The notes beneath the pieces were generated by a model, which was not told the DNA's origin, did no database searches, and worked only from the letters and a program-made list of their open reading frames with translations. This document shows positions 1,954 through 29,443 of a stretch of 64,000 nucleotides of DNA, piece after piece. Positions within the stretch are counted from its first letter, which is position 1. Each line of letters starts with the position of its first letter. Source of the stretch: Selenomonas sputigena (lineage in GTDB: Bacteria; Bacillota; Negativicutes; Selenomonadales; Selenomonadaceae); assembly GCF_026015965.1 (NCBI RefSeq), contig NZ_CP110383.1:777808-841807 (forward strand), given 5' to 3'. A program made the position numbers and the translations under genes.

Positions 1954-1969
1954 GAGGAGATGAGCCGAC

Positions 1970-3344: not shown

Positions 3345-3346
3345 CT

Positions 3347-3760
3347 ATGGCGAACAAGCTGCACATTTATATGAACAATCCTACGATCCGCATGAAAGAC
3401 GGCACGGAAGCCAGCACGGATACGGAGACTTCTCCTATTGCAGTATTGCTGGATGCGGCGAAGGAAGAGGAGAAAGCCGTCAAATGCGCTGTGCGCTGCG
3501 ATTCCGGCTACAAGGCCGAAGGTGCGGTCACGATCAAGTTCGTCGGCACGAACGCCGCCAAGTGGAAAGCCGCTCAAGATAATAACTACACGGCAGATAC
3601 GGTCTTGGCTTCCGCTGATTGGAAAGACACGATCTCCCTGCAAAGCGTCGGCGAAGGCAACGTCATCTTCTGGGTCAAGGCGACGAGTACGTCGGATGAA
3701 AGCCCAAAGAACGACACCACGGTTGACGTGCAGGCGGAAGGGCTGATCGTAGAAGTCTGA
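3347..3760 (+). CDS. Phage structural protein of unknown family
   Basis: This 137-residue acidic, beta-rich protein starts MANKLHIYMNNPTIRM. The ATG at 3347 has a GGAGGG seven bases upstream; an ATG at 3341 in the same frame is also possible. It contains a region like a small Ig- or lectin-type domain (GAVTIKFVGTNAAKW, then NVIFWVKATSTSDE), which is common in accessory tail proteins. It lies between the damaged tape-measure block and a probable receptor-binding protein. No family is assigned. Composition and spacing match the neighbouring phage genes. Confidence 0.6.
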   Translation: MANKLHIYMNNPTIRMKDGTEASTDTETSPIAVLLDAAKEEEKAVKCAVRCDSGYKAEGAVTIKFVGTNAAKWKAAQDNNYTADTVLASADWKDTISLQSVGEGNVIFWVKATSTSDESPKNDTTVDVQAEGLIVEV

Positions 3761-3772
3761 GGAGGCGATGGC

Positions 3773-4720: not shown

Positions 4721-4721
4721 G

Positions 4722-6785
4722 ATGGACGCTTCGCTGAAACCGCAGCTTTGGATTTCATGGATTCCTGTGGGCAAGGAAGTTCTCGCCCCGAAGATATACA
4801 TGACATGGATTCCGAGGGGGATCGAATGTCTGCGTCCTCAACTATACGGCACGATCATCCCCGCGTCTAAGCACAGGGAGACGGTGAGTGTAGATACCAA
4901 GCGCCAAGTTGCCGAAACAGCTGAAGCAAGAGCAGACAGTCAAAGGCAGGTTTGCAGCACCAACTGCATTATGGCAGATACGAAGCGCACGGTCACTTCC
5001 TCCGCCATCGACTGGACGAGCGCCAAACTTTTGCGGCGTGTTGCACAAAGAAATACGGCTTCTGCCGCCACGCGAAGATGCGTAGGCGGCATTTATGTCT
5101 GCATCCGCTGTGATACTTACCGCACGCTATCTCCGAACTACTGCATCGTGCGTGGGGCGACAGGGCGCGAAGTCGTCAAGCGGGAGACGGTTTGTTGCGA
5201 CACCAAGCGCACGCCAGGCATGGGGAATCGCGCGGCGGCGAAAACGCAGCGCAGACTCGGCAGGGGAAATGTCGCCAAAGCCGCCTTGCGCCGTACTGTC
5301 GTGGCGCGAGTGCGCGTTCGCTTCGACACCTTGCTTCGCATTCCTCATGTGTTCGAATATGTCACGTCATCGCATGGAAGAAGAAACAAGCGAAGCAAGC
5401 GTGCCGTATCACAGATCGCCGACAACTTTCGCACCCATGGCATCCGTTCCTTTGCTGTCACGCTCGGAGAGATGACGCTTTCCGACAATTTTCAGATGGA
5501 GACAGCACAGCCGCTTGCCATCGGCGATGCCGTGCGCGGTCAGATCTTGGACTATCGCTTCTCATTTTTGGTGGAAGAAACACTCCAACGGGACTTGCTC
5601 CAAACGGTGAAAGGCGCGTACAGCAAGGACGCGACGCTCTACTCTGCCATTCGCATCTTCGTAAAAGAAGCGCAAGCCTCTTATTACGCGCAGTCCATCG
5701 CCGCTGCGCTCGGCTTGCATCTCCATTGGGCGTGCGATGACTTTACGCCGTCACAGAACTTCGAGGACAGCGGCATGACATACCAAGACTTCATCTCTGC
5801 GCTTTTTGGCTGGACGGCGAAACTGCCGCAGCGGCAGGTCAATGTGTTCATCCGCGAAGATACGCTGCATATCGTCCAACGGGGCAGAGAAGCGTCCGTC
5901 CTCGACATCACGGACTGGCCGCACAGTTGCCCAACGGTGGAGCGCCGCCTCGTGCGCTCCCTGTGGCACAGCGGCCACGTTTCCGAGACGGCAGGCAACG
6001 CCTACAACGAGGAAGATACCGAGCCGATTCCTTTTACGGGTACGATCTCTTGGGAAGAAATGAGCCGCACCTACCACAACGGCTTTCTGACAAGCGAAAC
6101 GAATGAGAAAGGCATGACGCGATACACCTACCATGGCGAATATCTGACGAGCAAGCAGACGCACAATAAGGATGGCTCCACTAGCCGCACGGAATACACC
6201 TACGCCGAAACCGAGCGTGATGTGTATCTCGTCAAGGAATGGGAACGCACGACAGAACCCATCAACGATGGGAAGAAGCACACGGAATACGACTGGACGG
6301 ACTGGAACAACGAGCGCGGCACGGAGCGAATCACTTACCACGCGCCACTGGGCTACGGCTGGTACGCGACGACCGTCTACGTTGACGGCAATCTCGAGGG
6401 CAGCACCCTCTCGCAGGGCAAGCCCGGCGGCAAGGCAAGCCGCTTCACGGTCGAGCAGTCCAATCTCAGCCTAGGCTCACGCTACTCAGGCGACGACGAT
6501 GATGCACCCTTCACCTCGCTGATTGATACGGAATTTCCCGTCAAGGGCGAAGCGGTCCTCAAAGAACTGACGCAGGCGATTCTCTGGCTCAACCGCAAGA
6601 CGCAGGAAACCGTCACGTTGGAAGTGTTTGCGAACATTTGCGACGGCGTGCCGGATGTCGGGCATATCGCTGATTTCACCGAGCGCATAAAATTCGAGGG
6701 CAAAGAATATTTCCTGCAGTCGAATGCCGTCGAGCTTACGCCGCGCTCCCTCAAGCAAACCATAAAGATGACGAGGTGGTACTGA
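4722..6785 (+). CDS. Large phage tail/baseplate protein with DTKR-type repeats
   Basis: This 687-residue protein occupies the position of a tail-associated hub or baseplate protein. The first 220 residues carry irregular repeats around DTKR (for example SVDTKRQV, ADTKRTV, CCDTKRT, with variants DSQRQV, DTYRTL, ATRRCV) and many cysteines. From about residue 230 the sequence becomes a folded region with YAQSIAAALGL and VNVFIREDTLHIVQ, resembling hub proteins. Residues near 440-560 include tyrosine- and threonine-rich strands (TYHNGFLTSETNEKG, YTYHGEYLT) that recall RHS/YD-type beta repeats. The C terminus SLKQTIKMTRWY is basic and may enter a complex. The function is inferred from size and place. 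Confidence 0.55.
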   Translation: MDASLKPQLWISWIPVGKEVLAPKIYMTWIPRGIECLRPQLYGTIIPASKHRETVSVDTKRQVAETAEARADSQRQVCSTNCIMADTKRTVTSSAIDWTSAKLLRRVAQRNTASAATRRCVGGIYVCIRCDTYRTLSPNYCIVRGATGREVVKRETVCCDTKRTPGMGNRAAAKTQRRLGRGNVAKAALRRTVVARVRVRFDTLLRIPHVFEYVTSSHGRRNKRSKRAVSQIADNFRTHGIRSFAVTLGEMTLSDNFQMETAQPLAIGDAVRGQILDYRFSFLVEETLQRDLLQTVKGAYSKDATLYSAIRIFVKEAQASYYAQSIAAALGLHLHWACDDFTPSQNFEDSGMTYQDFISALFGWTAKLPQRQVNVFIREDTLHIVQRGREASVLDITDWPHSCPTVERRLVRSLWHSGHVSETAGNAYNEEDTEPIPFTGTISWEEMSRTYHNGFLTSETNEKGMTRYTYHGEYLTSKQTHNKDGSTSRTEYTYAETERDVYLVKEWERTTEPINDGKKHTEYDWTDWNNERGTERITYHAPLGYGWYATTVYVDGNLEGSTLSQGKPGGKASRFTVEQSNLSLGSRYSGDDDDAPFTSLIDTEFPVKGEAVLKELTQAILWLNRKTQETVTLEVFANICDGVPDVGHIADFTERIKFEGKEYFLQSNAVELTPRSLKQTIKMTRWY

Positions 6786-6787
6786 TT

Positions 6788-7012
6788 ATGAACGGCGTGC
6801 AAGGACTAGCCGACGCGCTCAGAAAAAGCGTCAAAGATACACGAGAGAAACAGGAAGGCAAGGCGCAGAGGGGCGTGATTCAAGGCGGCAGAGTCCGCAT
6901 CGGATCGCGCTCCTATTCGTTTAAAGCCGTCGTAGACTGCAGCACGGAAGAAGGCGCTCTCGTCTGGGTGCAAATTTCCAAAGGCGGCACGGCAATCATC
7001 TTAGGAGCGTGA
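6788..7012 (+). CDS. Small phage protein
   Basis: This 74-residue protein starts at ATG 6788, with GAGG about ten bases upstream. It has a basic helical N terminus (LADALRKSVKDTREKQEG) and a beta-rich end with GGRVRIGSRSYSFKAVVDCS and WVQISKGGTAIILGA. The pattern suggests a small assembly or hub-associated protein encoded between the large baseplate protein and a fibre-like protein. No family is assigned. It is spaced three bases from its upstream neighbour and five from the next gene, consistent with one operon. Confidence 0.5.
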   Translation: MNGVQGLADALRKSVKDTREKQEGKAQRGVIQGGRVRIGSRSYSFKAVVDCSTEEGALVWVQISKGGTAIILGA

Positions 7013-7016
7013 GAAT

Positions 7017-8234
7017 ATGCACAGGGCAAGAGTGAGCACTGTGGCGGGTAAGAAGGCACTTGCCGAAGGGAAGTGGCTCACCGTCATCGGAAACCGGAGC
7101 GTCCACAGCGGCGACTGGGTGTGGACGGACGGCCGCTGCATCTACGGGCATGAATCCGCAGGCGGCAGTGCGCCTGTGCTCGGTAAAAGAAGGGAAAGCG
7201 GCGTTCCTCTATACGTTGGCGGATGGCATTGCATCTACCAACGAGGAGAACTGCGATGGCTGTCAAAACTTCCATCGGTCAGTTACCGAGGGCTTCTTTA
7301 TCTGGGGGCGCATGCCGCATATCTTCTGCCGCATCCGTATCCGCGAGACAATAGGCAGCTCCTCGATGCGGATATGGATGCCTACGGAAACATTTTTACG
7401 CTCACGGGCGTTTACTGGGTGGAGGGTGATTTAGGGATAAGGCCGAGCGCTCTGGGCGCTGTCCGTGTAGAAAAGAATGGGAAAGAAATCGCCTCGCATG
7501 ATCTCAGACCGTATTACGGGGTGTTGAAAAATGCCACTTTCACAAGCATCATTACCGGAGGCGGACATGTAGACTGCGAAGGGAACTGGGGCTTCTATTT
7601 GGAAATTGACGCCTCCACAGACGGCGGATATGAAGGCAGAAAACCCGGCAGGGAAATGACCAATACCGTGTATTATGTGGATGCTGAAGGGGCACATCCG
7701 TTGTTCTATGAATATGCACGCTATAACAAAAACGGATTTCTGCGGAAGATAGAAAATTTTACGGGCGCGAGGGGGAAAAAGTTCCCGATTCACGACGGCT
7801 ACTATTATATGTGGAACAGTTATGAGCCAGCGGGCGCCAATGCGCTCAACCGTCCCGAGCGTATCATCTTGACTATTTTTACGCCGGCAGGAGACAAGGC
7901 CGTCACCGGGTGCTTTCGTCTTGGCACGCGCTTTACGATTCTTCGCATCGGCGAAGGGGCATATCTGCTCGGCGTGTATCATGTGACTATACAGAAGCTA
8001 TGGGCGATTAGTAAAGGCTGGGATCAGAATCCGGAAGAACCCTATCCGCAGGAGTGGGACGAAGTGCGTCCTTTCGAGGATGGATTGTACCTATGCAAAG
8101 ACGGCGTGATGAAAAGACTTGTCAAGGGTTATTGCGACACGTTCCGCTTCCGTCGTGTACGGGATATAAAGACGTGGGAAACGACGTTGAAAAATGCAAT
8201 TCAAGGAGGCAGCAAATCATGGAAAACCTTATGA
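7017..8234 (+). CDS. Phage protein, probable tail tip or fibre
   Basis: This 405-residue protein begins MHRARVSTVAGKKALAEGKW at ATG 7017, behind a TTAGGAG ribosome site. It is rich in Tyr, Trp and Gly and strand-like throughout, with stretches such as GDWVWTDGRCIYGHE, GEGAYLLGVYHV and EDGLYLCKDGVMKRL that suggest propeller-like or WG-type repeats. It sits last before the holin, where phages usually encode fibres or host-recognition proteins. It ends 16 bases inside the holin gene. Function is inferred from position only. Confidence 0.5.
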   Translation: MHRARVSTVAGKKALAEGKWLTVIGNRSVHSGDWVWTDGRCIYGHESAGGSAPVLGKRRESGVPLYVGGWHCIYQRGELRWLSKLPSVSYRGLLYLGAHAAYLLPHPYPRDNRQLLDADMDAYGNIFTLTGVYWVEGDLGIRPSALGAVRVEKNGKEIASHDLRPYYGVLKNATFTSIITGGGHVDCEGNWGFYLEIDASTDGGYEGRKPGREMTNTVYYVDAEGAHPLFYEYARYNKNGFLRKIENFTGARGKKFPIHDGYYYMWNSYEPAGANALNRPERIILTIFTPAGDKAVTGCFRLGTRFTILRIGEGAYLLGVYHVTIQKLWAISKGWDQNPEEPYPQEWDEVRPFEDGLYLCKDGVMKRLVKGYCDTFRFRRVRDIKTWETTLKNAIQGGSKSWKTL

Positions 8235-8623
8235 ACCTTCGTTGGTGGTCGACATGCATCGGTGTGCTTGTCGGCGAGTTTCTCGGCGACTTCGACCATC
8301 TGCTCTACGCACTGGTCGTATTCATCGCCGTAGATTACATCACGGGCGTCCTCTGCGCCGTATTGGACAAGAACCTGTCGAGCGAGATCGGCTTTCAGGG
8401 CATCGTGCGGAAAGTCGCCATCTTTCTGCTCGTCGGCGTGGCGAACGTGCTCGACGTCCACATCATCGGCAGCGGCTGCGTCCTGCGTTCGGCGGTAATC
8501 TTCTTCTACTTGTCGAACGAGGGTATCTCAATTGTAGGACACGCAGCGAGAATGGGGCTTCCCGTACCGAAGAAGCTGCAGGAAGCCATGAAGGAGATAC
8601 GGGAAAAACAGATGCTCGGATAA
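8219..8623 (+). CDS. Phage holin
   Basis: This 134-residue membrane protein matches the phage holin family 4-1 (Cph1/toxin-secretion holins), which opens the inner membrane at lysis. It shows hydrophobic segments near residues 9-25, 29-48, 60-78 and 85-105, a DYITGVL motif in the second one (typical of the family), and a charged C-terminal tail KKLQEAMKEIREKQ. The ATG at 8219 has an AAGGAGG upstream and lies inside the end of the preceding tail gene. A terminator follows. No endolysin gene is recognisable beside it, which is unusual. Confidence 0.85.
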   Translation: MENLMNLRWWSTCIGVLVGEFLGDFDHLLYALVVFIAVDYITGVLCAVLDKNLSSEIGFQGIVRKVAIFLLVGVANVLDVHIIGSGCVLRSAVIFFYLSNEGISIVGHAARMGLPVPKKLQEAMKEIREKQMLG

Positions 8624-9409: not shown

Positions 9410-9435
9410 GGGATATATGGTGAAGGGTGATACAA

Positions 9436-11082
9436 TTGAAGATTACACGCATAGAGCCGACCGTGGCGACACTTACGCCCAAAAAGAAAGTGGCAGCTTA
9501 TGCCCGTGTTTCAATGGAATCAGACAGGCTGAACCATTCACTCTCGGCACAGGTCAGTTATTACAGCAATCTCATCCAGAACAATCCCGAATGGATCTAT
9601 GCCGGGGTGTACGCCGACAGCGGCATCTCCGGCGGCGGGATTCGCCGCCGGGCAGAATTCAAGCGAATGGTCGAGGACTGCGATGCCGGGAAAATCGACA
9701 TCGTTCTCTGCAAGAGCATTTCAAGATTTGCCAGAAACACGGTAGACCTGTTGGAAACCGTGCGGCACTTAAAATCTCTCGGCATCGATGTATGGTTTGA
9801 GAAGGAGAACATCCAGTCGCTCTCGGCGGACGGGGAACTCATGCTCGGAATTTTGGCGGGCTTTGCGGAAGAGGAGAGCCGCAGCCAATCCGACAATGCC
9901 AAGTGGTCGATTCAGAAGAAATTCGAGCGTGGGGAGCAATGGCACGCTGCCGCCTATGGCTACCGATGGGACGGCAAGTCCTTCGTCATCTGCGAGGAAG
10001 AAGCAGATGCCATCCGGGTGATTTACAACAATTTCCTCAAGGGTATTCCGCTTAGTCAGACATCCCGCTGGCTGCAGAAACACGGACATGCTTCATCCGT
10101 GCCGTTCATTCGCTACGCCTTGCGGAACATGGTCTATGCCGGAGATGTTCTTCTGCAGCGTTACATCACGGAAAATCCTCGGACGCACAGAATCATCGAG
10201 AACAAGGGACAGCTGCCGCGCTACTACATTACGGACAATCACCCTGCCATCATCGACAGGGTGACGTTTGAGAAGGTGCAAAAGAAAATCCAGGCCAGCT
10301 ACGACTTCAACCTGGCGGCGCATCGCATCGTAAAGCCCAGCTGCTTCTCGGCGAAAATCATCTGCGGCAAATGCGGCGCACACTTCGTCAAGGGAGCGAC
10401 CAGAACCAACGGACATGACGGCTTGCAGGAACATTGGTATTGCTACGACAAAATCCGCAAGCGGACGTGCGATGCGAGGAACATCCGTGGCTATCGGCTG
10501 CGGGAGGCTTCTTGCGAGGTGCTGGGACTGACGGAATTTGACGAGAATGTGTTTGCCAAGACCGTAGAGAAAATCCGCACCACCGATACGGACGTGTTGG
10601 AATTCCACTTCTACGATGGCACGGTCAAGACGGCGAAAATCCACTACTTCAATCAAGCGGAAAAGAAGTGCACCGACCCGCACAAGAAGCCCTTCGGCTA
10701 CCGATGGAGCAAAAACGGTTATGTGCTTGTTCCCAAAGAAGCCGAGGCGGTTCGGCTGATATTCCAATACTATCTCGACGGCTGGCAAATCACCGACATC
10801 TCACGGAAGCTGGAAGCCGACGGCTATGGCAGCATGCGTGGGAAAATATCGCGCAAGCTGATTGCCTATACGCTGGACAACGACTTCTACCTCGGCGTTC
10901 GCCGAATCAAGGCGCAGTTCTCCGAGAGCGGACGGGAGGAAATTATCGAGAACGACCATGAGCCGCTAGTGACGCAGGAGATATTCGATGCTGTTCAAAT
11001 GCGGCGGCAAGCGGAATACAGACGATGGAAAGGACGTGAGCGCGATGCGAAGTGTGACGGTCATCCCGGCCAGCATCCATAG
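9436..11082 (+). CDS. Large serine recombinase 1
   Basis: This 548-residue protein is a large serine recombinase. The N-terminal resolvase domain shows YARVS with the catalytic Ser at about residue 26, and the block SISRFARNTVDLLE. A recombinase domain follows (GYRWDGKSFVICEEEADAIRV), then a zinc ribbon (CGKCG ... CYDK ... CDA). A second recombinase-type segment near the C terminus repeats the pattern (GYRWSKNGYVLVPKEAEAVR), which is unusual. I chose TTG 9436 because AAGGG lies eight bases upstream; GTG 9427 is an alternative. It overlaps recombinase 2 by 38 bases. It would catalyse site-specific integration or excision of the element. Confidence 0.85.
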   Translation: MKITRIEPTVATLTPKKKVAAYARVSMESDRLNHSLSAQVSYYSNLIQNNPEWIYAGVYADSGISGGGIRRRAEFKRMVEDCDAGKIDIVLCKSISRFARNTVDLLETVRHLKSLGIDVWFEKENIQSLSADGELMLGILAGFAEEESRSQSDNAKWSIQKKFERGEQWHAAAYGYRWDGKSFVICEEEADAIRVIYNNFLKGIPLSQTSRWLQKHGHASSVPFIRYALRNMVYAGDVLLQRYITENPRTHRIIENKGQLPRYYITDNHPAIIDRVTFEKVQKKIQASYDFNLAAHRIVKPSCFSAKIICGKCGAHFVKGATRTNGHDGLQEHWYCYDKIRKRTCDARNIRGYRLREASCEVLGLTEFDENVFAKTVEKIRTTDTDVLEFHFYDGTVKTAKIHYFNQAEKKCTDPHKKPFGYRWSKNGYVLVPKEAEAVRLIFQYYLDGWQITDISRKLEADGYGSMRGKISRKLIAYTLDNDFYLGVRRIKAQFSESGREEIIENDHEPLVTQEIFDAVQMRRQAEYRRWKGRERDAKCDGHPGQHP

Positions 11083-12610
11083 ATTTTCGGAAGTGCCGCT
11101 GGCGAGTGCAGAAAAGCGTAAAGTGGCGGCGTATGCACGAGTCTCCACGGACAACGAAGATCAGAAAACCTCCTACGCCGCCCAAGTGGATTATTACACC
11201 AACTACATCCAGAGCCGCTCAGACTGGGAGTTTGCTGGGATGTATTCGGATGAAGGCGTGACGGGAACCTCCATGAAAAAGCGCGAGGGATTTACTCGTA
11301 TGGTGCAGGATGCTCTGGATGGAAAAATCCAGCTGATTGTCACGAAATCCGTGTCGCGTTTTGCAAGAAATACGGTTGATTCGCTCACTACCATACGGAA
11401 ACTCAAGGAACATGGTGTTGAAGTCTATTTTGAAAAAGAGTCCATCTGGACATTTCAGGCTCGCGGCGAAATCCTCTTGACGATTCTTTCTAGCCTATCG
11501 CAGGAGGAAGCGAGGAGCATTTCCGAGAACGTCACATGGGGCTTGCGGAAGAGATTCGCAGACGGCAAGTTCTCCGTCGGATACTCGCGCTTTCTCGGCT
11601 ACGACAAGGGCGAGGATGGAAATCTTGCTATCAACGAGGAGCAGGCCAAGATCGTGCGGCTCATCTTCCGGCTTTTCCTTGAGGGTATGACGGCTTGCCG
11701 AATTACCAAGGAACTGGCCGTACGACATATCTTGACGGTCACGGGCAAGGAGAAATGGAACGCCAAGACCATCCGGGGAGTCCTCGCCAACGAGAAGTAC
11801 ACGGGCTGTGCGAGGATTCAAAAGACCTTCACGCCGGACTTTCTCACCAAGAAAGCCGTCAAGAACTGCGGGCAAGTGCCAAGCTACTTCGTGGAGCAGA
11901 GCCATCCCGCCATCATCGACCCTGCCGTGTTCGAGATGGTGCAGAGGGAGATGGAGCGACGCACACGGGAGGGCGGGAGATACAGTGGTGTGAGTATTTT
12001 CTCGGGGAAAATCCGATGCAGTGCGTGCGGCGGTTACTTTGGAGCCAAGGTTTGGCATTCCACAGATAAGTACAGGCGCACCGTTTACCGCTGCAACAGC
12101 AAGTATGACGGGCAGAAATGCCAGACGCCCCATGTGACGGAGGATGAAATCAAGGAAGCCTTCGTCACAGCATTCAATCGGCTGGTGACGGAGCGGGATG
12201 AGATCATCGCGAATGCTCGGCTCGTGCGACAGGTACTCTGTGACACGACGGTGCTTGCGGAGGAGAAAGCCAAGCTGCAGCAGGAACTGGCGGTGTTGGT
12301 GGAGATGATGGAGAAAGCTGTCCGTGAGAACGCCCGCATTGCACAGAATCAAGAGGAGTATCAGAAGCACTACGAGGGGCTTGTGGCGAGATATGATGCC
12401 GCCAAGGCTCGGTTTGACGAAGTGACGGAAACCATCTCTGCCAAGGAAGCGCAGTCCGAGCGATTGGCGGTGTTCATCAAGTGCATCAAGGAACAGAGTG
12501 TGCCTGTGGCAGAGTTCGGCAGCCAGCTTTGGGCGAGCATGGTAGAGTGCGTGACCGTGGGCAAGGGCATGACGGTGGTGTTTCGGGATGGAACGAAGGT
12601 AAGAATTTGA
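11045..12610 (+). CDS. Large serine recombinase 2
   Basis: This 521-residue protein has the standard large serine recombinase layout: resolvase domain with YARVS (catalytic Ser about residue 34) and SVSRFARNTVDSL, recombinase domain with GYSRFLGYDKG and NEEQAKIVRLIFRLFL, zinc ribbon (CSACGGYFGAKVW ... CNSKYDGQKC), a long coiled coil and a C-terminal MTVVFRDGTKVRI. The ATG at 11045 lies inside recombinase 1, giving translational coupling; such overlapping pairs probably act together. It is closely related to the truncated recombinase at 20432-21586, in the same orientation. Confidence 0.9.
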   Translation: MRSVTVIPASIHRFSEVPLASAEKRKVAAYARVSTDNEDQKTSYAAQVDYYTNYIQSRSDWEFAGMYSDEGVTGTSMKKREGFTRMVQDALDGKIQLIVTKSVSRFARNTVDSLTTIRKLKEHGVEVYFEKESIWTFQARGEILLTILSSLSQEEARSISENVTWGLRKRFADGKFSVGYSRFLGYDKGEDGNLAINEEQAKIVRLIFRLFLEGMTACRITKELAVRHILTVTGKEKWNAKTIRGVLANEKYTGCARIQKTFTPDFLTKKAVKNCGQVPSYFVEQSHPAIIDPAVFEMVQREMERRTREGGRYSGVSIFSGKIRCSACGGYFGAKVWHSTDKYRRTVYRCNSKYDGQKCQTPHVTEDEIKEAFVTAFNRLVTERDEIIANARLVRQVLCDTTVLAEEKAKLQQELAVLVEMMEKAVRENARIAQNQEEYQKHYEGLVARYDAAKARFDEVTETISAKEAQSERLAVFIKCIKEQSVPVAEFGSQLWASMVECVTVGKGMTVVFRDGTKVRI

Positions 12611-20431: not shown

Positions 20432-21586
20432 GGTAAGACGGAACTCCTTATAACGATTATGTCCAGCCTGGCCCAGGAGGAAAGTCGCAGCATCTCGGAG
20501 AACACCACATGGGGCAAACGCAAGCAGTTCGCCGAGGGTAAGACCAGTGTGGGCTACAGTGCCTTTCTCGGCTATGACAAGGACTTCAAAATCAACGAGG
20601 AGCAGGCGAAAGTGGTGAAGCTCATCTACAAACTATTCGTTGGAGGTCGATCCTTCTATGCCATCACCAAGGAATTGGAGAAGCGCGGTATCAAATCCCC
20701 GTCGGGAAAGGACAAGTGGTATATTTCCACGGTACGGTCAATCCTTACGAACGAGAAGTACCGTGGCGATGCGCTGATCCAGAAGGAGTATACGGTGGAT
20801 TTCCTCGATAAGACGAGACGGAAGAATACGGGTGAGATTCCGCAGTATTATGTGGAGGAACATCACGAGGCGATTATCCCGCCGGACTTATTCGACTTTG
20901 TGCAGTCGGAGATAAAACGCAGAGAGCAGAACGGCAAGCACAGCGGTGTGAGCATCTTCGCAAACAAAATCAAATGCGGCTGCTGCGGCTGTTGGTACGG
21001 AGCGAAGGTATGGCACTCGACCGACAAATACCGCAGGGTGATCTACCGCTGCAACAAGAAATATTCCCAAAAGGGAAAGCCGTGCAGCACGAGGCATCTG
21101 ACGGAAGAGGAAATCAAATGGATTTTCGTCAAAGCACTGAACTCCTTGGTAGAGGTCAAAGAGAACGTGATTGCGGAACTCACGGAGCTGATTGACAGTG
21201 TTTGCCAAACGGAGGAGCTGACGGAGGAACGGGATAAAGTAGAGCAGGAACTCGGCGGTTTGACAGAACACCTTGAAACGCTGATTCGCGAGAATGCACG
21301 GGTGGCACAGGATCAGAATGCGTATCTGAAACAGGAAAACGAGATTCGTGCACGCTATGTGGAAAAGCAGGGGAATTTGGAGAAGTTGGACGAGCAAATT
21401 GCCGAGAGGGAGAGTAAGAGAAACACCTTGGAGACCATAATTCAAGTGATATGTGGTATCAACGAGGAGCAGGCTGAGTTTGACGAGGATTTGTGGAGCG
21501 GACTGCTCGATTACATTGTGGTCAAGAAGGACGGGCAGATTGTTGTTGTTTTTAAGGGTGGGATTGAGAGTGGCGTTGGAGGATGA
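20432..21586 (+). pseudogene. Serine recombinase 3, catalytic domain lost
   Basis: The frame contains everything after the resolvase domain of a large serine recombinase: the end of the catalytic domain (GKTELLITIMSSLAQEES), recombinase domain (GYSAFLGYDKDFKINEEQAK), zinc ribbon (CGCCGCWYGAKVW ... CNKKYSQKGKPC), coiled coil and a C-terminal IVVVFKGG. The first 140 or so residues with the catalytic Ser are missing. Homology to recombinase 2 begins abruptly at about 20432. Translation could start at ATG 20459, giving a 375-residue protein that may still bind DNA but cannot cut it. It has the same orientation as recombinase 2. Confidence 0.85.
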
Positions 21587-21766: not shown

Positions 21767-21808
21767 CAAACACAAGGCAGATGTTATTATGAAGTAGGAG
21801 GGGGATCT

Positions 21809-22753
21809 ATGGAGGTCAATGCAAATCTGGCACAGGATGTGTTCAAGGATGCAGGTGAGAGCGTCATTTTCGTCATGCTCTCACTGAAACGCGAGGATAT
21901 TGAGAAGGAGCGGGAGATCATCGCCGATATGGCAGATCGGATGGAGGCGATTCAGCGCTCGATGAACATCCGCGTCGCACCGGAGACGGTGAAGCTTTCG
22001 TTTGGGTTCAGCAACCGTGCGTGGGAATATCTCTTTCCAACGGCAAAGAAGCCGAAGGAACTCGAGGATTTCCAGGGGGTAAACGGCGAACACCACACGG
22101 CACCTGCGACACCTGCCGATCTCTTTCTCCATGTGCGTGCGGGTCAGGCGGCAACAAGCTATCTCGTCGTCGATCAGATCATGAGCTTCCTTCGTCCTGT
22201 CGTGGACGTGGTAGATGAGACACACGGCTTTCACTATCTTGAGGGACGTGCAATCATTGACTTCATTGACGGAACGGAGAATCCCGTCGGTGAGGAGGCA
22301 AAGGAGTGGGCGATCATCGGTGCGGAGGATCCGGAGTTCATCAACGGCTCCTATGCTTTTGCACAGAAATACATTCACGACCTCGACGCGTGGCGGGCAC
22401 TCCCGACCGAGGTGCAGGAGAAGTATGTCGGCCGGAGGAAATACAGCGATCTTGAACTCTCCGACGGGGAGAAGGATCCGCGTGCGCACAACATCATCTC
22501 GCAGGACAACCGCGATGGTGAGGAGCACAAGATCGTGCGCATGAACGTCGTCTTTGCGAATCCCGGCGAGGGGGTGCGCGGCACCTATTTCATCGGCTAC
22601 GCACGCCATTGGAATGTGACACGGCAGATGGTCACCAATATGTTTACGCAGGATGACCGCCTACTCGAATATTCGACCGCGGAAAAGGGGCAGCTCTTCT
22701 TCATTCCGTCGAAGGAAATCTTAGGGCGTATCGCCGAGGGGGAATTGTTCTAG
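21809..22753 (+). CDS. Dye-decolourising (DyP-type) heme peroxidase
   Basis: This 314-residue protein is a DyP-type peroxidase of the YfeX-like group. The signature GxxDG is seen as FIDGTENP, followed by the usual ferredoxin-like second half with a proximal-histidine region (YARHWNVTRQM) and an SKEILGRIAEG end. Family enzymes use heme and peroxide to oxidise dyes or porphyrins and are cytoplasmic here, since there is no signal peptide. The ATG at 21809 has GGAGGGGG upstream; an in-frame start at 21659 would add an implausible AT-rich leader. It is the first gene after the broken recombinase and has its own promoter. Confidence 0.9.
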   Translation: MEVNANLAQDVFKDAGESVIFVMLSLKREDIEKEREIIADMADRMEAIQRSMNIRVAPETVKLSFGFSNRAWEYLFPTAKKPKELEDFQGVNGEHHTAPATPADLFLHVRAGQAATSYLVVDQIMSFLRPVVDVVDETHGFHYLEGRAIIDFIDGTENPVGEEAKEWAIIGAEDPEFINGSYAFAQKYIHDLDAWRALPTEVQEKYVGRRKYSDLELSDGEKDPRAHNIISQDNRDGEEHKIVRMNVVFANPGEGVRGTYFIGYARHWNVTRQMVTNMFTQDDRLLEYSTAEKGQLFFIPSKEILGRIAEGELF

Positions 22754-22863
22754 GGAGCATTGAGTATATCGGTATACACTGGGGAATGTGGTATCAGTCA
22801 AGAAATTTTGTGTTACAATATCGGGTGTTGAAAGATCATTGATCTTTTTGGAGGGAACACAAT

Positions 22864-22951
22864 ATGGAAGAAGTATTAAAAAACAGAAGCTGAGGTAGAG
22901 CATCTGGAAAAGAAGGCTGTACAGCTTGGCAAAGAGGCTGCCAAAAAAAAG
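22864..22951 (+). other. Translation start and frame break upstream of SemiSWEET
   Basis: A strong GGAGGG site stands eight bases before ATG 22864, which opens MEEVLK and then hits TGA at 22891. Skipping one base in the A6 run at 22878-22883 would join it to the frame TEAEVEHLEKKAVQLGKEAA, which continues without a stop into the transporter. Either a single-base indel has separated the ribosome site from the gene, or slippage on the A run restores the frame. Confidence 0.6.
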
Positions 22952-23197
22952 ATGAGCATCGTCGGCGTGATTGCCTCCGGTCTGTCCATTTGTATGTACG
23001 TTTCCTATATCCCGCAGATCCTTGGAAATCTGTCCGGTCATCAGGGAGACTGGATTCAGCCGTTCGTCGCATTCATCAACTGCACGATGTGGGTTGGATA
23101 CGGGTTTTTCAAAAAGCAGCGCGACTGGCCGCTCGTAATCGCCAATTCTCCGGGCATCATCTTTGGTCTGACGGCTGCGATTACCGCTCGTCTCTAA
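22952..23197 (+). CDS. SemiSWEET sugar transporter
   Basis: This frame encodes 81 residues from ATG 22952 with the three transmembrane helices of a SemiSWEET half-transporter: ASGLSICMYVSYIPQIL with the typical P in helix 1, PFVAFINCTMWVGYGFF with the conserved N, and ANSPGIIFGLTAAITA. SemiSWEETs dimerise to move small sugars across the membrane. Length is close to the usual 85-95 residues. The true start is uncertain because the best ribosome site belongs to ATG 22864, one frame away. A strong terminator follows. Confidence 0.8.
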   Translation: MSIVGVIASGLSICMYVSYIPQILGNLSGHQGDWIQPFVAFINCTMWVGYGFFKKQRDWPLVIANSPGIIFGLTAAITARL

Positions 23198-23248
23198 ATG
23201 TGTAAACACAGCAGCCAATACAAATGATGTGAATTTCCGTGAGTTCGC

Positions 23249-23295
23249 GGGACTGTTGCACGAAGTTAGAAAACTTCGTGCAACAGTCCCTTTTT
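23249..23295. terminator. Bidirectional terminator
   Basis: A 19-base stem, GGGACTGTTGCACGAAGTT pairing with its inverse around AGAA, is followed by TTTTT. It separates the plus-strand SemiSWEET gene from the converging minus-strand GNAT gene. A degenerate cousin of the stem (GGGCTGTTGCACGAA) appears after the malic enzyme gene at 25380. Confidence 0.85.
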
Positions 23296-23311
23296 GTCGA
23301 ACGGATTCCAC

Positions 23312-23587
23312 TCAGTCTGCAAGCACGTCGGTGTATTCCTCCCTGCCGCGCATCATCTTCTCTGCATAGGAGCAGACGGGGACGATCTTCTTCCCTGTAT
23401 GGCGCGCCTCGGCGATGATTTCCTCGATGAGGCGGCGGGCGATGCCCTGCCCTCCGTAGGCGGGGTCAACCTCGGTATGTGTGATGACCCAGCATCCGCG
23501 CGCCTCCTCAAGCTCTGCGACGCCGACGCGTGTTTCGCCGTCATAGGCCGCGCTGCGGAAATGTTCGGGTTCAAATACGATCTGCAT
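23312..23587 (-). CDS. Small GNAT-like N-acetyltransferase (YjdJ type)
   Basis: This 91-residue protein fits the short GNAT group (Gcn5-related, YjdJ-like). The acetyl-CoA binding loop is visible as VDPAYGGQGIARRLIEEII, followed by the strand KKIVPVCSYAEKMM that is typical of the group. These proteins act on unknown cytoplasmic substrates. The start ATG at 23587 has GGAGGAATCACC just upstream, which is why I preferred it to in-frame initiators further out. It faces the SemiSWEET gene across a shared terminator and is divergent from the malic enzyme gene. Confidence 0.85.
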   Translation of the reverse strand: MQIVFEPEHFRSAAYDGETRVGVAELEEARGCWVITHTEVDPAYGGQGIARRLIEEIIAEARHTGKKIVPVCSYAEKMMRGREEYTDVLAD

Positions 23588-23738
23588 GGTGATTCCTCCT
23601 TTGCCCGTATTGTAACGCATGAGGAATGTGCCTGTCCAGTATGCGGCAGCAGATTATAAATTGTGCACAGCAGGAAATCGGAGGGCTTTTCTCGAATACC
23701 GAATGCAAGAGTGTTTCGCTGACGAAAAGGAGGAAATT

Positions 23739-25367
23739 ATGGACAAGAAAGGGTATGCTCTGTTGAGCGATCCGTTTCAAAACAAGGGGACGGCGTTCAG
23801 TGCTGACGAGCGCGCACAGTTTGGACTTACGGGCCTCCTGCCGCCGCATGTTGACACGATTGCGGAGCAGGCGCAGCGCATCTATCAGCAGATGGAGCGC
23901 AAGAGCTCGGGGCTCGAGAAGCGCCGCTTCCTGATGGACGTGTTCAACCGCAACCGCCGCCTGTTCTACTATGTGTTTCGTCAGCATATTGCAGAGCTCA
24001 TGCCGATTGTCTACGATCCCGTGATCGCCGAGAGCATTGAACAGTACAGCGAGCAGTTTATCAACCCGCAGGAGACGGCATATCTCTCGATCGATCACCC
24101 GGAGGCGGTCGAGACGACGCTGCGGCAGGCGGCGGGCGACCGGGAGATCCGTCTCATCGTTGCAACGGACGCAGAGGGCATTCTCGGCATCGGCGACTGG
24201 GGGACGGACGGTGCCGATATCGCCGTCGGGAAGCTGATGGTCTATACCGCAGCAGCGGGAATTGACCCCACGTCGGTGCTGCCGGTCATGCTCGACTGCG
24301 GGACGAACCGCGAGAGCCTCCTGCAGGATCCGCTCTACCTCGGCAATCGTCACGAACGCGTGCGGGGCAAGGCATACGACGACTTCATCGATGCCTTTGT
24401 GCAGACGGCGGAGCGGCTTTTCCCACGCCTCTATCTCCACTTCGAGGACTTTGGACGGCCGAACGCCGCGTCGATTCTGCGCCGGTACCAGAAGACCTAT
24501 CCCGTCTTCAACGACGACTGTCAGGGGACGGGCATCATCACGCTCGCAGGACTCCTTGGCGCGATGAAGATCACGGGGCAGAAGCTCACGGAGCAGAGAT
24601 ACATGTGCTTCGGCGCGGGGACGGCGGGCGCGGGCATCACGAGCCGTATTTGCCGCGAGATGGTCGAGCAGGGGCTCAGCGAGGAGGAGGCGCGCGGGCA
24701 TTTCTACCTCGTGGACAAGCAGGGCCTCCTCTTTGACGACATGGGCGACCTGACGCCGGAGCAAAAGCCATTCGCGCGAAAACGCAGCGAGTTCGACCAT
24801 GCGGATTCGCTCACGACGCTTACGGCCGCCGTGATGGCGGTAAAGCCGACCATCCTTGTCGGCACGTCGACAATGCCGGGCGCGTTCACGGAGACGATCA
24901 TGCGAGCGATGGCATCGTGGTGTGATCGTCCGATCATTTTTCCGCTGAGCAATCCGACAGAGCTTGCCGAGGCGACAGCGGAGGACCTCATTCGCTGGTC
25001 GGACGGGCGTGCGTTGGTTGCGACCGGTGTTCCGCGTGATCCGGTCTCCTACCGAGGAACGACCTACGAGATCGGACAAGCGAACAACGCACTTATCTAT
25101 CCGGGACTCGGCCTCGGCAGCATGGCGGTCGATGCGAAGCTCGTGACCGATGAGATGATCTCGGCCGCGGCGCATTCACTCGGCGCATTCCTTACGCCCG
25201 AGGCAAAGGGCGCTGCCGTCATTCCGCCCGTTACGCGCCTCATTGAGTTCTCTGCCGCCGTCGCTGTTGCCGTTGCGGAGTGTGCCGTGAAGCAGGGACT
25301 GAACCGACGCGCGGTCGCGGATGTAAAGGCCGCTGTCGAGGAAATGGTCTGGAAGGCGGAATACTGA
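23739..25367 (+). CDS. NAD-dependent malic enzyme
   Basis: This 542-residue protein is a large-type malic enzyme, which decarboxylates malate to pyruvate with NAD(P). Visible features are the active-site Tyr region ([16 protein letters not shown]), [14 protein letters not shown], the metal-site block [17 protein letters not shown] ending in [10 protein letters not shown], and the nucleotide fold GAGTAGAGI. Length agrees with the MaeA/SfcA family. The ATG at 23739 follows AGGAGG. It connects C4 acids to pyruvate, a sensible function in an organism fermenting lactate and succinate. It is monocistronic here. Confidence 0.92.
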
Positions 25368-25451
25368 CGCATTGAGAAAGGGGCTGTTGCACGAAACCAA
25401 CGTGTAGCAGCCTCAATTTTGTGGAAAAAACACAGAAGGAGGTGTTGCCCC

Positions 25452-25553
25452 ATGAGTGACCGACTTCTCCCCTATGAAACCATTGTAAAGGCACATGAGG
25501 GCGACCCCCATAGCAATAGAATGGTTCTGTTCATCAGTTACCATATGATATGA
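25452..25553 (+). pseudogene. Fragment of a Tn916-type helix-turn-helix protein
   Basis: A good ribosome site (GAAGGAGG) leads to ATG 25452 and MSDRLLPYETIVKAHEGDP, which resembles the start of the small conjugative-transposon regulator family (typically ...YETIVKATEGDPEAI...). After about 20 residues the similarity ends and the frame stops at 25551 inside the 3' end of the converging LysR gene. It looks like the stump of a mobile-element gene. Confidence 0.5.
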
Positions 25554-26449
25554 TCCTTTCTCGTTTTTTTCAGCCAATCCAAGAGGAATTGACGGAATGT
25601 ACGCGCCGCTTCGGTGAGGATGACGGTCTTGTCCTGTATGAGGCATACCTCCTGCCCCATATCTTTTCCGTCGCCAAGTTCTCGCATGACAATGTCTGGC
25701 TGTCTGTTCATGACGGCTGCGTAGTCGTAGCCGAGATTGATCGCAGGATTATGACGCAGCAGATCAACAATGAGGGATTCATCGGCAGTTTCGGCTAGAA
25801 TCTCGATTTTGAGACCTGGCAGGAGGATGTGTTTGTCGATATTGTGACGGAAACAGTGATAGGCGCGTCCTTTACTGATGATCATTTGCCCGTCGAGATC
25901 TGTGTAGGTGATACGGCTCTTTTCTGCCAAGGGATGATGCGCAGAGAGACGAGCACAGTAGCGGGAGAAAAAGAGTACGTCCCCTTGAAAGCGGGTCTGA
26001 TCAAAGGGGGCGGTGACAATGGAAAAATGAGATCGCTTTGTTAGAAGTCCCTCCATTGCATCGTCGTCTGTTGTATCGACAATGCTCAGAATAATGCTCG
26101 GATGAGCAGTATGAAAATCCTGTAGAAATTGTGCCCCCAGATAAGAAAAGACGTGATCCAGTGCAAAAATGGTAACGACACTTTTTGAATGGGTGGCGAG
26201 GGATTTCATGCTTTCGATGGATTGATATTCATCCAGCATACGTTGAACGTGGGGCAGTAGTGCTGCTGCATAATCGGTCGGAATGATTCCGCGTGGGGTA
26301 CGGGTGAAAAGCGGCTGCCCAAGCTCCTCCTCCAATGATCTCATCGCTCTGCTGAGACCTTGTCTTGCAACATAAAGATGATCTGCTGCCGTCTGGATAT
26401 TGCCGCAGCGATAGACTTCAATGAAATACTCCATCTGCTTTCGATTCAT
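25538..26449 (-). CDS. LysR-family transcriptional regulator
   Basis: This 303-residue protein has an N-terminal LysR helix-turn-helix (YFIEVYRCGNIQTAADHLYV, then QGLSRAMRSLEEELGQPLF) and a two-lobed ligand domain. The start ATG 26449 was chosen because GGGAGG lies eight bases upstream; in-frame ATGs at 26455 and 26473 are less well placed. The gene is divergent from the metallo-hydrolase gene, and a perfect 16-base palindrome lies between them, so it probably controls that gene and itself. The effector is unknown. Its 3' end overlaps the stump of a mobile-element gene on the other strand. Confidence 0.9.
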   Translation of the reverse strand: MNRKQMEYFIEVYRCGNIQTAADHLYVARQGLSRAMRSLEEELGQPLFTRTPRGIIPTDYAAALLPHVQRMLDEYQSIESMKSLATHSKSVVTIFALDHVFSYLGAQFLQDFHTAHPSIILSIVDTTDDDAMEGLLTKRSHFSIVTAPFDQTRFQGDVLFFSRYCARLSAHHPLAEKSRITYTDLDGQMIISKGRAYHCFRHNIDKHILLPGLKIEILAETADESLIVDLLRHNPAINLGYDYAAVMNRQPDIVMRELGDGKDMGQEVCLIQDKTVILTEAARTFRQFLLDWLKKTRKDHIIW

Positions 26450-26489
26450 CTTCATACCTCCCGCCTGTTTCATCGGTATCTATTCTACT

Positions 26490-26505
26490 GCAACAATATT
26501 GTTGC
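26490..26505. promoter_or_regulatory. Palindromic operator between LysR and hydrolase genes
   Basis: GCAACAATATTGTTGC is a perfect 16-base palindrome in the 145-base divergent intergenic region. It contains the T-N11-A layout often bound by LysR regulators. Confidence 0.6.
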
Positions 26506-26594
26506 GGCAAGCCCCGTTGTTTTTCTTGTCGTCATGAGGGAAGTACACTATACTGTGAAGCAGATCAACCAAATGATGAACAGGAGAAACACTT

Positions 26595-27407
26595 ATGAAA
26601 CTCACACAGATTCGCAATGCAACAAACCGTTTGGACTATGCAGGGAAAGTCTTTCTGATTGACCCGTGGCTTGCACCGAAACATCAGCTGTCGTTCGTCG
26701 ATATTCCAGGCATGCCGTTCCATGTCCCTGATCAGATGAAGGAGCATCTTCCAATGCCGTTCTATGATTTGCCAATGAATACAGAGCAGATTTTGAGCGG
26801 TGTTGACTACTACATCGTTACGCATCTGCATCCCGATCATATTGATATGGCACCGGACGGGACGGTCGGTGCACCGCTTGATAAGGCGGTTCCAGTCATC
26901 TGTCAGTCGGAGGAGGATGCCTCTGTTCTGCGGAGTTCCGGGTTTTCAGAGGTAATCGTCCTGCCGACAAGCGGTATGGAGTTCGGTGCGGCGAGACTGA
27001 CCCGCGTCCCTGCCCTGCACGGCACCGTTGTTCCTTGCGGTGACGCGATGGGGATTGTGTTTGAGGCACCGGAGGAGAACACCTTCTATTTGGCAGGGGA
27101 TACGGTCTGGTATTCCGGCGTAGCTGAGACACTGCGGAACTATCAGCCTGAGGTGATTGCCCTGAACTGTTGTGCCGCAGAGACCGTGGAAAACGGACGC
27201 CTCATCATGAACGATGAGGATGTTCACTGCGTTGCAATGACTGCGTCTAACGCCCGTCTTTATCTGACGCACTTGGACAACGTCGCACATGCTGCGCTTA
27301 CGAGGCATACACTGCGAGGATGTTTGGCACGTCGCGGCGTGGTGAATTATGATATGCCGTCCGATGGTGCGTCGGTTGAATATAAAGCCGCAACAGTCGG
27401 AGCTTAA
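26595..27407 (+). CDS. Metallo-beta-lactamase-fold hydrolase (UlaG-like)
   Basis: This 270-residue protein carries the metal motif THLHPDHIDM at about residues 75-84 and the later AGDTVWYSG, both typical of the UlaG-like branch of the metallo-beta-lactamase fold; a C-terminal LTHLDNVAHA adds a further histidine. Such enzymes often hydrolyse cyclic esters or lactones; the substrate here is unknown. The ATG at 26595 is preceded by GAACAGGAG. It is divergent from the LysR gene, which is its likely regulator. The stop is followed by a transposon-end-like palindrome. Confidence 0.85.
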   Translation: MKLTQIRNATNRLDYAGKVFLIDPWLAPKHQLSFVDIPGMPFHVPDQMKEHLPMPFYDLPMNTEQILSGVDYYIVTHLHPDHIDMAPDGTVGAPLDKAVPVICQSEEDASVLRSSGFSEVIVLPTSGMEFGAARLTRVPALHGTVVPCGDAMGIVFEAPEENTFYLAGDTVWYSGVAETLRNYQPEVIALNCCAAETVENGRLIMNDEDVHCVAMTASNARLYLTHLDNVAHAALTRHTLRGCLARRGVVNYDMPSDGASVEYKAATVGA

Positions 27408-27455
27408 TTCCTGTCATACGGTAAATTCCACACACAAAAGAGATTCCATTCGCCT

Positions 27456-27510
27456 GTAGTGACCCCCAAAAGTTAGATTCTCTAAGTCTAGCTTTTGGGG
27501 GTCAGGTCAG
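27456..27510. repeat. Collapsed IS-end palindrome
   Basis: TGACCCCCAAAAGTTAGA is followed after nine bases by TCTAGCTTTTGGGGGTCA, so two outward-facing ends of an IS3-type element (IS150-like TGACCCCC tips) lie almost back to back. It may be a minimal MITE-like relic, an IS with its interior deleted, or a terminator derived from one. Confidence 0.6.
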
Positions 27511-27616
27511 CCATACCCAGCGTTTGGACTCTTTTTTTTTGCAAAGAATCGTTAGCCATCTGCCCCCTTTCCTGTGTTATAATTTTCGTATATTTGAAAC
27601 GTGGGAGGGAAGGTCG

Positions 27617-27778
27617 TTGTTTGCAAAGACTTATGGTGCGGTGACTCTCGGGATAGACGGACGGATTATCGACGTTGAGGTGGATGTGTCGCCCGGGCTG
27701 CCGGGGTTTGAGCTGGTGGGGCTTCCCGATACGTCGGTGAAGGAGTCGAAGGAGCGGGTTACAGTCCATCTCGCTTAA
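27617..27778 (+). pseudogene. Divergent 5' fragment of comM
   Basis: From TTG 27617, behind a GGAGGG site and a TATAAT box, this encodes [20 protein letters not shown] and the rest of the first 50 residues of the ComM/YifB family, then stops at 27776. The intact comM with the same beginning starts 136 bases later. The two copies differ at many bases and residues, so this is not a fresh duplication but probably the end of a foreign comM brought in with the block upstream. Confidence 0.8.
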
Positions 27779-27913
27779 TCATATTTGCAGAATACAGAAG
27801 TGGGATTTTGGTATTCGCCGCAATTTTCCATCAAAAGCAGGATTAAATCTCATCAATGGAGAAAAATAACAAACAAAAGAAACACCATTCCAATCAAAAA
27901 GAGGTGCAGCTTT

Positions 27914-29443
27914 GTGTTTGCTAAATCGTATGGTGCGGTGACTTTCGGGGTCGATGGGAGAATCATCGATGTTGAGGTCGATGTTTCTTATGGATTTCCT
28001 GCTTTCGACATCGTCGGGCTTCTTGATACGGCGGTGAAGGAGTCGCGTGAGCGGGTACGCACGGCGATCAAGAATACGGGCGTGAAGCTCAAGCCTGCGC
28101 GGGTGACGATCAATCTTGCGCCTGCAGATATACGAAAGGACAGCTCGGGACTCGATCTGCCGATCGCCGTCGGGCTTTTGGCGGCGTATGGGCTGATTCC
28201 AGCAGAGCGCATGGAGCGTGCCTTGTTTGCGGCGGAGCTTTCGTTGGAGGGGGAGCTTCGGAGTGTGCGCGGCGTGCTCTCCATGACGGTCGGGGCGAAG
28301 GAGCATGGCTTTCGTGAAATCTTCGTTGCGCCCGGCAACGGCAGTGAGGCATTGCTCGTCGATGGCATCCGCGTGTATGCGCCGAAAAACTTGCGCGAGC
28401 TGTACGATTTTCTCTTGGGCAAGGCGGAATTGCTTCCGTTGGAAGCAACACCTGCTGCGGCCTGTGATACAGAAGTGCCTTCGGATGACTTTGCCGATGT
28501 GCAGGGGCAGTTCTTCGCCAAGCGTGCGCTTGAGATTGCGGCGGCAGGCGGGCACAATCTTCTGATGGTCGGCGTTCCAGGCTCGGGCAAGACGATGCTC
28601 GCGCGCCGTCTGCCGTCGATTCTGCCGCCGATGACGCGTCAGGAAGCGCTTGAAGTGACGAAGATCTACAGCATCGCGGGGCTTTTGAAGGACGGCAGCG
28701 GCCTCGTCGAGACGCGTCCCTTTCGCAGTCCGCATCATACGACGTCGACGGTGGCGATGATCGGCGGCGGCAGCATCCCGCGTCCGGGCGAGGTGACGCT
28801 TTCGCATCACGGCGTGCTGTTTCTCGACGAGCTGCCTGAGTTCGGCAAGTCGACGCTGGAAGTTCTGCGCCAGCCGTTGGAGGACGGCGCTGTGACCGTG
28901 GCACGGGTCAATGCCACGCTGACATTTCCTTCTTGTATCATTTTGGTCGTGGCAATGAATCCCTGTCCGTGCGGCTATTTTGGTGACAAGGAGAAGAGCT
29001 GCGACTGCACACCGAATGAGATCAAACGCTATACGCGGAAGATTTCGGGGCCGCTGCTCGACCGCATTGATATTCACGTCCATGTGCCGCGCGTCAAGTA
29101 CGAGGATATGACGTCTGTGGCGAAGGCGGAACCTTCGGCTGCGATTCGTGAGCGTGTCCTGGCGGCGCGTGAGATTCAGATGGAGCGGTTGCGTGAATGG
29201 GGCATATTTTGCAACGCGCAGATGAGCCATGCGATTTTGAAAAAGACGTGCCATCTTGAGCCAGAGGCGCAGAATCTCTTGGCGCAGGCATTTCAAGTCA
29301 TGAATTTATCAGCACGCTCGTATGACCGCATCATCAAGGTCGCACGCACGATTGCCGATCTCGACGGAGCGGCGACGATCGAGGCGAAGCATGTGGGAGA
29401 AGCCATACAATTGAGGGACGATGTGGGGCTGAGTGTGGAATGA
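27914..29443 (+). CDS. comM: ComM/YifB-family Mg-chelatase-like ATPase
   Basis: This 509-residue protein matches ComM (YifB), a ring-forming helicase that promotes branch migration during natural transformation. It has the N-terminal ChlI-type domain ([20 protein letters not shown]), a Walker A GVPGSGKTMLARRLP near residue 220, a Walker B region VLFLDELPEF, a CPCGYFGDKEKSCDC metal cluster and the C-terminal Mg-chelatase helical domain. Length is normal. I use GTG 27914, which has GAGGTG upstream; longer in-frame starts give a non-homologous leader. The N terminus is slightly atypical (SYGFPAFDIVGLLD). It is followed by a TfoX-like gene, another competence-associated family. Confidence 0.92.
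   Translation: MFAKSYGAVTFGVDGRIIDVEVDVSYGFPAFDIVGLLDTAVKESRERVRTAIKNTGVKLKPARVTINLAPADIRKDSSGLDLPIAVGLLAAYGLIPAERMERALFAAELSLEGELRSVRGVLSMTVGAKEHGFREIFVAPGNGSEALLVDGIRVYAPKNLRELYDFLLGKAELLPLEATPAAACDTEVPSDDFADVQGQFFAKRALEIAAAGGHNLLMVGVPGSGKTMLARRLPSILPPMTRQEALEVTKIYSIAGLLKDGSGLVETRPFRSPHHTTSTVAMIGGGSIPRPGEVTLSHHGVLFLDELPEFGKSTLEVLRQPLEDGAVTVARVNATLTFPSCIILVVAMNPCPCGYFGDKEKSCDCTPNEIKRYTRKISGPLLDRIDIHVHVPRVKYEDMTSVAKAEPSAAIRERVLAAREIQMERLREWGIFCNAQMSHAILKKTCHLEPEAQNLLAQAFQVMNLSARSYDRIIKVARTIADLDGAATIEAKHVGEAIQLRDDVGLSVE

Follow-up and report, generated by a model that had tools for sequence, protein, structure and literature searches.

A truncated comM start upstream of the intact comM gene of Selenomonas sputigena is probably the decayed remnant of a gene module carried by temperate phages

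The DNA analysed in this study, referred to as the window, is a stretch of 64,000 nucleotides of Selenomonas sputigena corresponding to C1:777808-841807 of a 2.61-Mb genome assembled in one contig (G000). Two starts of comM, a competence-associated gene, lie on its forward strand, to which the LSR genes, the prophage part and the imported block described below were also assigned. The downstream start belongs to the intact comM-2 (27914..29443; 509 aa; PF01078, PF13541 and PF13335), whose likely start codon is the GTG at 27914. The upstream start, the comM-1 stub (27617..27778), is an open reading frame of 53 codons with a TTG start and a TAA stop. A preliminary description had presented it as 53 codons of a comM relative; the reading frame is real, and Pfam recognized in it the start of a ChlI domain (PF13541, E 4.5e-9), but the comM homology ends at 27759, so that only codons 1-48 are comM and the last five are unrelated to it. 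The same description had drawn the fragment as far as 27911, which has to be corrected, since 27779..27913 is the leader of the intact gene. This leader, which separates the stub end from the comM-2 start by 135 bp, shows homology from 27822 onward to another comM place of the same genome (locus C, described below), and no forward promoter-like site was listed in it. The proposed divergence of the two starts and the stub's own expression signals were both borne out. The stub shares 75% DNA identity with the downstream comM start over 142 bp, and an extended -10 element, TGTTATAAT (27575..27583), and a ribosome binding site, GGGAGGG (27603..27609), were read from the sequence. Further upstream, at the edge of an imported block, a 47-nt palindrome also read from the sequence (TGACCCCCAAAAGTTAGA...; 27460..27506) interrupts the terminator hairpin that belongs to these signals; its ends are, by appearance, presumably IS3-like. 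A similar 47 bp is present in S. infelix (L270, 3083-3128).

The position and orientation of the two starts would suit a local tandem duplication of the comM start. However, in a tree of 144 columns, 28 of whose 36 inner branches were weak, the stub fell among the comM-1 starts and was 96% identical to the comM of G026, a genome of genus g6, which we take to be the oral Selenomonas group; comM-2 grouped with its counterpart in G001 and with locus C of its own genome (100/99). The preliminary description had named clustering of the two starts as the outcome that would speak for duplication, and a constraint placing both window starts in one clade was rejected (p-AU 0.0003). The two starts are thus not nearest kin, and a tandem duplication is hardly conceivable. 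A constraint uniting both stubs with the three comM-2 rows in one clade was not rejected (p-AU 0.335). An assembly artefact is likewise unlikely as the source of the stub, since G001, the only other genome of the same genus that was compared, carries the identical succession of stub, codon-48 junction and comM-2.

Two further places with comM starts were found in the same genome. Locus B (C1:2232 kb; L108) has a frame-shifted comM-1 copy that is cut exactly after codon 349; behind it comes a nucleotidyltransferase/HepT-like gene pair, whose name derives from a near relative in L160. The frame of this copy shifts near codon 110, and its last part looks, by eye, like comM-2, which makes it a mosaic at a large distance from the comM locus; its phage junction is clean. 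In locus C (C1:712-713.6 kb), the comM-1 promoter and six codons are fused to a methyltransferase-like ORF, which was named by eye and is split by a frameshift; the first ORF of the locus had no Pfam match. Downstream lies a comM-2 start of about 78 codons, again followed by a nucleotidyltransferase/HepT-like pair. This fusion of promoter, six comM codons and methyltransferase-like ORF (L107, 6355 onward) has the same junction on the minus strand of L254 (18233; G027, S. felix), and its comM start may perhaps be reused as an expression start. The nucleotidyltransferase/HepT-like toxin-antitoxin pair, whole or in part, appears repeatedly after comM scars (L107, L160, L108, L142 and L242), with a Pfam basis for L107 7697-8374 and L160 14387-15051 and by eye in the other three.

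Such starts are dispersed widely in oral Selenomonas. Across 189 Selenomonadaceae genomes, with at most the best three candidates per genome scored, members of genus g6 each had several copies of the promoter and comM start, about 90% identical. With all candidates scored, eight genomes had 1 to 6 module matches each, those on one contig all pointing the same way. The 5' region of clpX, used as a control, gave a single true match in 8 of 9 genomes and none in G028, with one extra short match each in G032 and G037; the multiplicity of the comM module is therefore beyond chance. Among 50 aligned copies, a set from which six loci repeating other loci were left out, TATAAT was kept in 46, GGAGGG in 46 and a recognizable terminator hairpin in 35. 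Their similarity rises near -125 on average, and some pairs share the gene further upstream as well. Copies within one genome were as divergent (90.8% identity, 11 pairs) as copies of different genomes (90.2%, 67 pairs). All 13 copies examined were free of stops over 348 codons, and the copies of one genome probably arrived separately. Shorter comM pieces tend to lie farther from comM (Spearman -0.50, n 20, p 0.025, from a hand-entered table pooling five of the eight genomes of the all-candidate search), a trend suggestive of an age gradient along the arrays. Junctions between a comM piece and its downstream sequence were common to different genomes at codons 6 (locus C and G027), 43, 143, 23, 35, 92 and 216, and the simplest reading would be that decayed modules travel between species together with their neighbours.

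Undecayed modules stop at codon 349. Seventeen distinct places end at comM base 1046, within this codon, in a set that leaves out at least two codon-349 sites, G027:C17 and G035:C1; in 16 of the 17, the sequence continues with a shared CGAMGTAACGTC-like arm, close to CGAMGTAACGTCRATAACGATACAATG, and the remaining place (L265) has the junction at base 1046 with a different downstream sequence. Genomes thus have in common a precise junction inside comM, as befits a prophage with a large serine recombinase (LSR) in this gene. The exact arm pattern was present in 9 of the 189 Selenomonadaceae genomes at 14 sites, namely in 8 of the 14 g6 genomes and in G000. A dyad has its midpoint at the arm junction (13 of 25 positions; p 0.005 for the predicted centre, 0.14 over all centres), and the intact comM site has no dyad (6 of 25). 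This is the form expected for a predicted serine-integrase attP with the core AA. In the window, the stub lacks the codon-349 junction; the site in comM-2 is uninterrupted, its predicted LSR core dinucleotide AA being placed at 28958..28959 by alignment with the junctions and by the dyad test. Several stubs, including that of the window, end near codons 43-51, and one might invoke an element that integrates site-specifically and has another attachment site around codon 48. Such a site was sought among the junctions, but the stubs end at different bases and run into different sequences, apart from those whose downstream sequence is common to several genomes, and this origin is very improbable.

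The suggestion that comM is an island target, made from knowledge of other bacteria, found a counterpart in Selenomonas, where LSR phages have these codon-349 junctions. In one element (G038), the approximately 48 kb between two codon-349 copies encodes a terminase, portal, head protease, major head protein, DNA polymerase and endolysin. In G036, an intact LSR of 549 aa (L141) with resolvase, recombinase and zinc-ribbon domains lies directly upstream of full comM. An empty site is represented by Selenomonas sp. F0473, in which yraN adjoins comM; in several array genomes yraN is on the other side of comM, which indicates that these genomes have been rearranged. The elements are, as far as genome sequences reveal, apparently temperate phages with LSRs that join comM at codon 349. 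Four stretches with the junction and five loci with a comM 5' part were also found in viral contigs, which may be integrated prophages and were left out as proof of free phage. The PHROG matches of ComM were confined to generic families (ATPase or helicase) and a single family without a known function. The window itself includes the right part of a resident prophage (1..8623), with tail genes and a tape-measure gene (2455-3270) cut to 271 codons, the PHROG profile having 848 positions; this prophage is probably defective because of the cut. It has a complete LSR (10988..12610; PF00239, PF07508 and PF13408) and a second LSR-like gene (9427..11082). A truncated LSR without the N-terminal resolvase domain (20459..21586) is 88% identical in amino acids to the intact LSR beside comM in G036.

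The comM genes of oral Selenomonas indicate what these phages bring. In ten such genes (45 pairs), the 5' part was on average 90.5% identical and the 3' part 77.8%, with differences from -3.0 to 21.5 points. After 7 of the 45 pairs outside a 3' identity of 69-82% had been dropped, the best change point lay at bp 1049-1073 in 33 of the 38 pairs and at bp 1127-1183 in 5, the core being at 1045-1046. In 15 genes presumed to be without a phage allele (105 pairs), the difference between the parts averaged 4.3 points (-0.9 to 9.8), and in the nine of these pairs within the same 3' range it was 2.0 points. The 5' part of comM in the empty-site strain F0473 is 77.9% identical to the phage alleles. Furthermore, G025, which is probably S. 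artemidis, holds a 349-codon copy followed by the arm that is 90.2% identical to the F0473 allele and 78-79% to the phage alleles; the working comM of S. artemidis, taken to be that of the same strain, has a phage 5' part. The displaced copy also has the module promoter region upstream and so is not a purely native end; apart from this promoter, a displaced native-type copy would be what lysogenization with restoration of the gene predicts. Given the working genes that are chimeric at the junction and the displaced native-type 5' part, the phages evidently bring codons 1-349 of comM. An open chimeric comM, a displaced native-type 5' part and the presence of comM 5' sequence in supposedly complete phage genomes (see below) are together the marks of a gene-restoring element. 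Between G000 and G001, comM-2 differs at 36 of 1046 positions in the 5' part and at 37 of 484 in the 3' part (p 0.0007). The change point lies at 983, and the pattern would fit an exchanged 5' part in the S. sputigena lineage too.

On these grounds, we propose that the stub is, with good probability, a decayed remnant of the comM 5' module of temperate LSR phages that integrate at comM codon 349. Such a phage would carry a terminator, a promoter, a ribosome site and comM codons 1-349; its attP core would coincide with the end of the last of these codons. Upon integration, the old comM 5' part would end up at the distal (left) side of the prophage, and the phage-borne 5' part would join host codons 350-509, leaving comM whole. 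With comM itself as the left arm of attP, the right junction would recreate a full attB, at which further phages could integrate to form arrays of one direction. Older modules would then decay to stubs of various lengths, and stubs with adjacent cargo would cross between species. In the window, one comM-1 module would have been trimmed to 48 codons ahead of the comM-2 native to the lineage, and later the block at 21.8-27.45 kb would have replaced earlier upstream DNA. Against a phage origin, the stub ends at codon 48 and not at 349 and has no attP arm there; for this reason its assignment depends on kinship with the module, and since the same codon-48 junction is found in G001, the junction must be old. 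A decayed module is nevertheless the most likely account of the stub.

The block upstream of the stub (21795..27451) encodes a DyP peroxidase, a SemiSWEET-like protein, a GNAT protein, a malic enzyme, a LysR regulator and a metallo-hydrolase, named from their domains, and is 96.4% identical to a stretch of S. massiliensis (L043/L271) that lies directly upstream of the comM of that species. In view of the much lower likeness of comM-2 to the S. massiliensis comM (65-68%) and of the clpX start to that of g6 genomes (73-76%), the block evidently crossed species recently. Its part 25500-27450 is 93-96% identical in G027, G028, G029, G030 and G032 and 90% in G177, which belongs to another genus. 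In a search of the 189 genomes with this part, scoring the best two candidates per genome, 65 matched in all, the rest mostly at 63-73% or over a very short length. At 27451-27454, within the terminator that immediately precedes the comM promoter, the identity to two donors (L043 and L149) falls from 97-99% to 89-91%.

The preliminary description had suggested that the block may have entered by recombination from a related species with one end in comM. Entry by recombination and a related donor agree with the identity to S. massiliensis, but the end lies in the terminator and not inside comM; on the whole, that account foresaw recombination and donor and overlooked the LSR phages with their 349 comM codons. 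Plain homologous recombination could have brought the block and the comM piece from a related chromosome in one event, without phages. The position of the S. massiliensis counterpart beside comM agrees with such an event, as does the presence of a comM-1 copy within approximately 120 bp of the block end in G028, G029, G030 and G032. However, no match to the block was found in G001, with the best two to three candidates per genome scored, and this genome has the stub and its junction, so that the stub is probably older than the block. Furthermore, the identity drop at 27451 precedes the stub, the nearest comM piece to the block is 3.6 kb off in G027 and 4.5 kb off in G177, and the codon-349 junctions would be left unexplained. 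A single event without phages is accordingly rated unlikely. The block evidently entered by recombination, one of its ends falling at the module and the stub probably being there already; homologous recombination may have moved it.

The stub may also have been kept for its function, its promoter and perhaps its short ORF driving comM-2, which would be compatible with its being a phage remnant. The same junction is present in G000 and G001, and the differences between the two stubs are synonymous in 7 cases and non-synonymous in 2 (P 0.003 against neutrality), an excess that would be unexpected of a dead scar. In addition, a sigma-70 consensus scan listed no forward promoter-like site in 27350-28100, so that the stub promoter may serve comM-2. 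However, the extended -10 promoter of the stub likewise escaped the scan, the differences number only nine, and overwriting of the stub by intact modules would give an equal signal. The synonymous excess might thus mean either that the stub has been overwritten or that it is useful, and we regard a retained function as possible but rather unlikely.

Among known systems, the SXT element supplies a new start to prfC. The SXT/R391 ICEs at the 5' end of prfC resemble the Selenomonas phages in insertion on the 5' side, tandem arrays and hybrids formed by homologous recombination (PMC2791158, PMC4489591). They differ in being conjugative, with a tyrosine recombinase and insertion at the 5' end itself (PMC2791158, PMC4489591), whereas the Selenomonas phages would enter at codon 349 of 509; a serine recombinase and a comM site were found here instead of the tyrosine recombinase Int and the prfC site that define SXT/R391. 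The magnesium chelatase gene is the target of 12.4% of predicted site-specific LSR integrases, a strong enrichment (PMC10083194). These elements are alike to ours in enzyme family and, as the annotation was read, in target gene; in the available part of that report the genes are disrupted and restoration is undescribed (PMC10083194), whereas the Selenomonas phage would carry 349 codons and restore comM. Phage WO sr1, likewise an LSR phage with the same kind of target, disrupts the magnesium chelatase gene of Wolbachia, portions of which lie on either side of the prophage (PMC9203015); in Selenomonas, comM is kept open. In the accretion of ICEs, IMEs and CIMEs, newcomers use the att site of a resident and decayed elements keep att sites, much as proposed here, but site-specific IMEs with serine recombinases disrupt dispensable target genes (PMC5704250), and the Selenomonas phages would rebuild comM. 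PHASTEST has been reported to list a single prophage region in each of the genomes of S. lamontii and S. sputigena ATCC 35185, with comM unmentioned in the sections available (PMC13339959). Searches of the open-licence literature turned up no account of a phage that both carries comM and restores it.

A related arrangement is present in two records of Evtepia phages from human faeces (PV036445.1 and PV036427.1), which were deposited as complete genomes and carry comM codons 1-299. They are counted as one case because they are 99.5% identical in the comM stretch. The comM ORF stops at codon 299, although a weak tblastn match runs on past this stop as far as 338; upstream of the comM part, a ribosome site and a terminator-like hairpin were seen by eye. 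PV036445.1 encodes an LSR of 610 aa that is 48% identical to the Selenomonas LSR, and no match to an LSR was obtained in PV036427.1 within the 15 kb searched. Most proteins of these records are labelled hypothetical in the parts shown. Seven of the 31 phage records with a ComM match were looked at, and the other five were set aside since their comM is of nearly whole length and probably host DNA.

Taken with the Selenomonas elements, these records allow the tentative suggestion of a phage class in at least two bacterial groups, oral Selenomonas and Evtepia, with a self-contained comM 5' part (terminator, promoter and 299-349 codons) that ends in attP. Each lysogenization would rebuild the gene, regenerate attB, make attL a copy of attP and permit tandem lysogeny, and excision might proceed without a directionality factor; the modules could also act as handles for the exchange of cargo across species and genera. 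If this is true, the phage would be the effective owner of the comM 5' part. Phages that overwrite two thirds of comM and yet keep it open would help to explain how so many insertions are tolerated, and the arrangement bears on how serine integrases keep their direction when attL and attP share sequence. For oral Selenomonas, it would explain the dispersed comM fragments and suggests a route of gene exchange between species.

Cargo of another kind lies in the window between the prophage LSRs and the truncated LSR (12997-19323). It encodes an endonuclease/phosphatase-like protein, a 794-aa protein for which no Pfam match was obtained and a SIR2-like protein of 856 aa (PF13289), which has approximately 89% DNA identity in G002 (L158/L159); it is possibly a defence cluster. 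Outside the window, at G000:C1:735-748 kb (L167, L168), a type I restriction-modification-like cluster with HsdM domains lies between two prophage remnants of the array.
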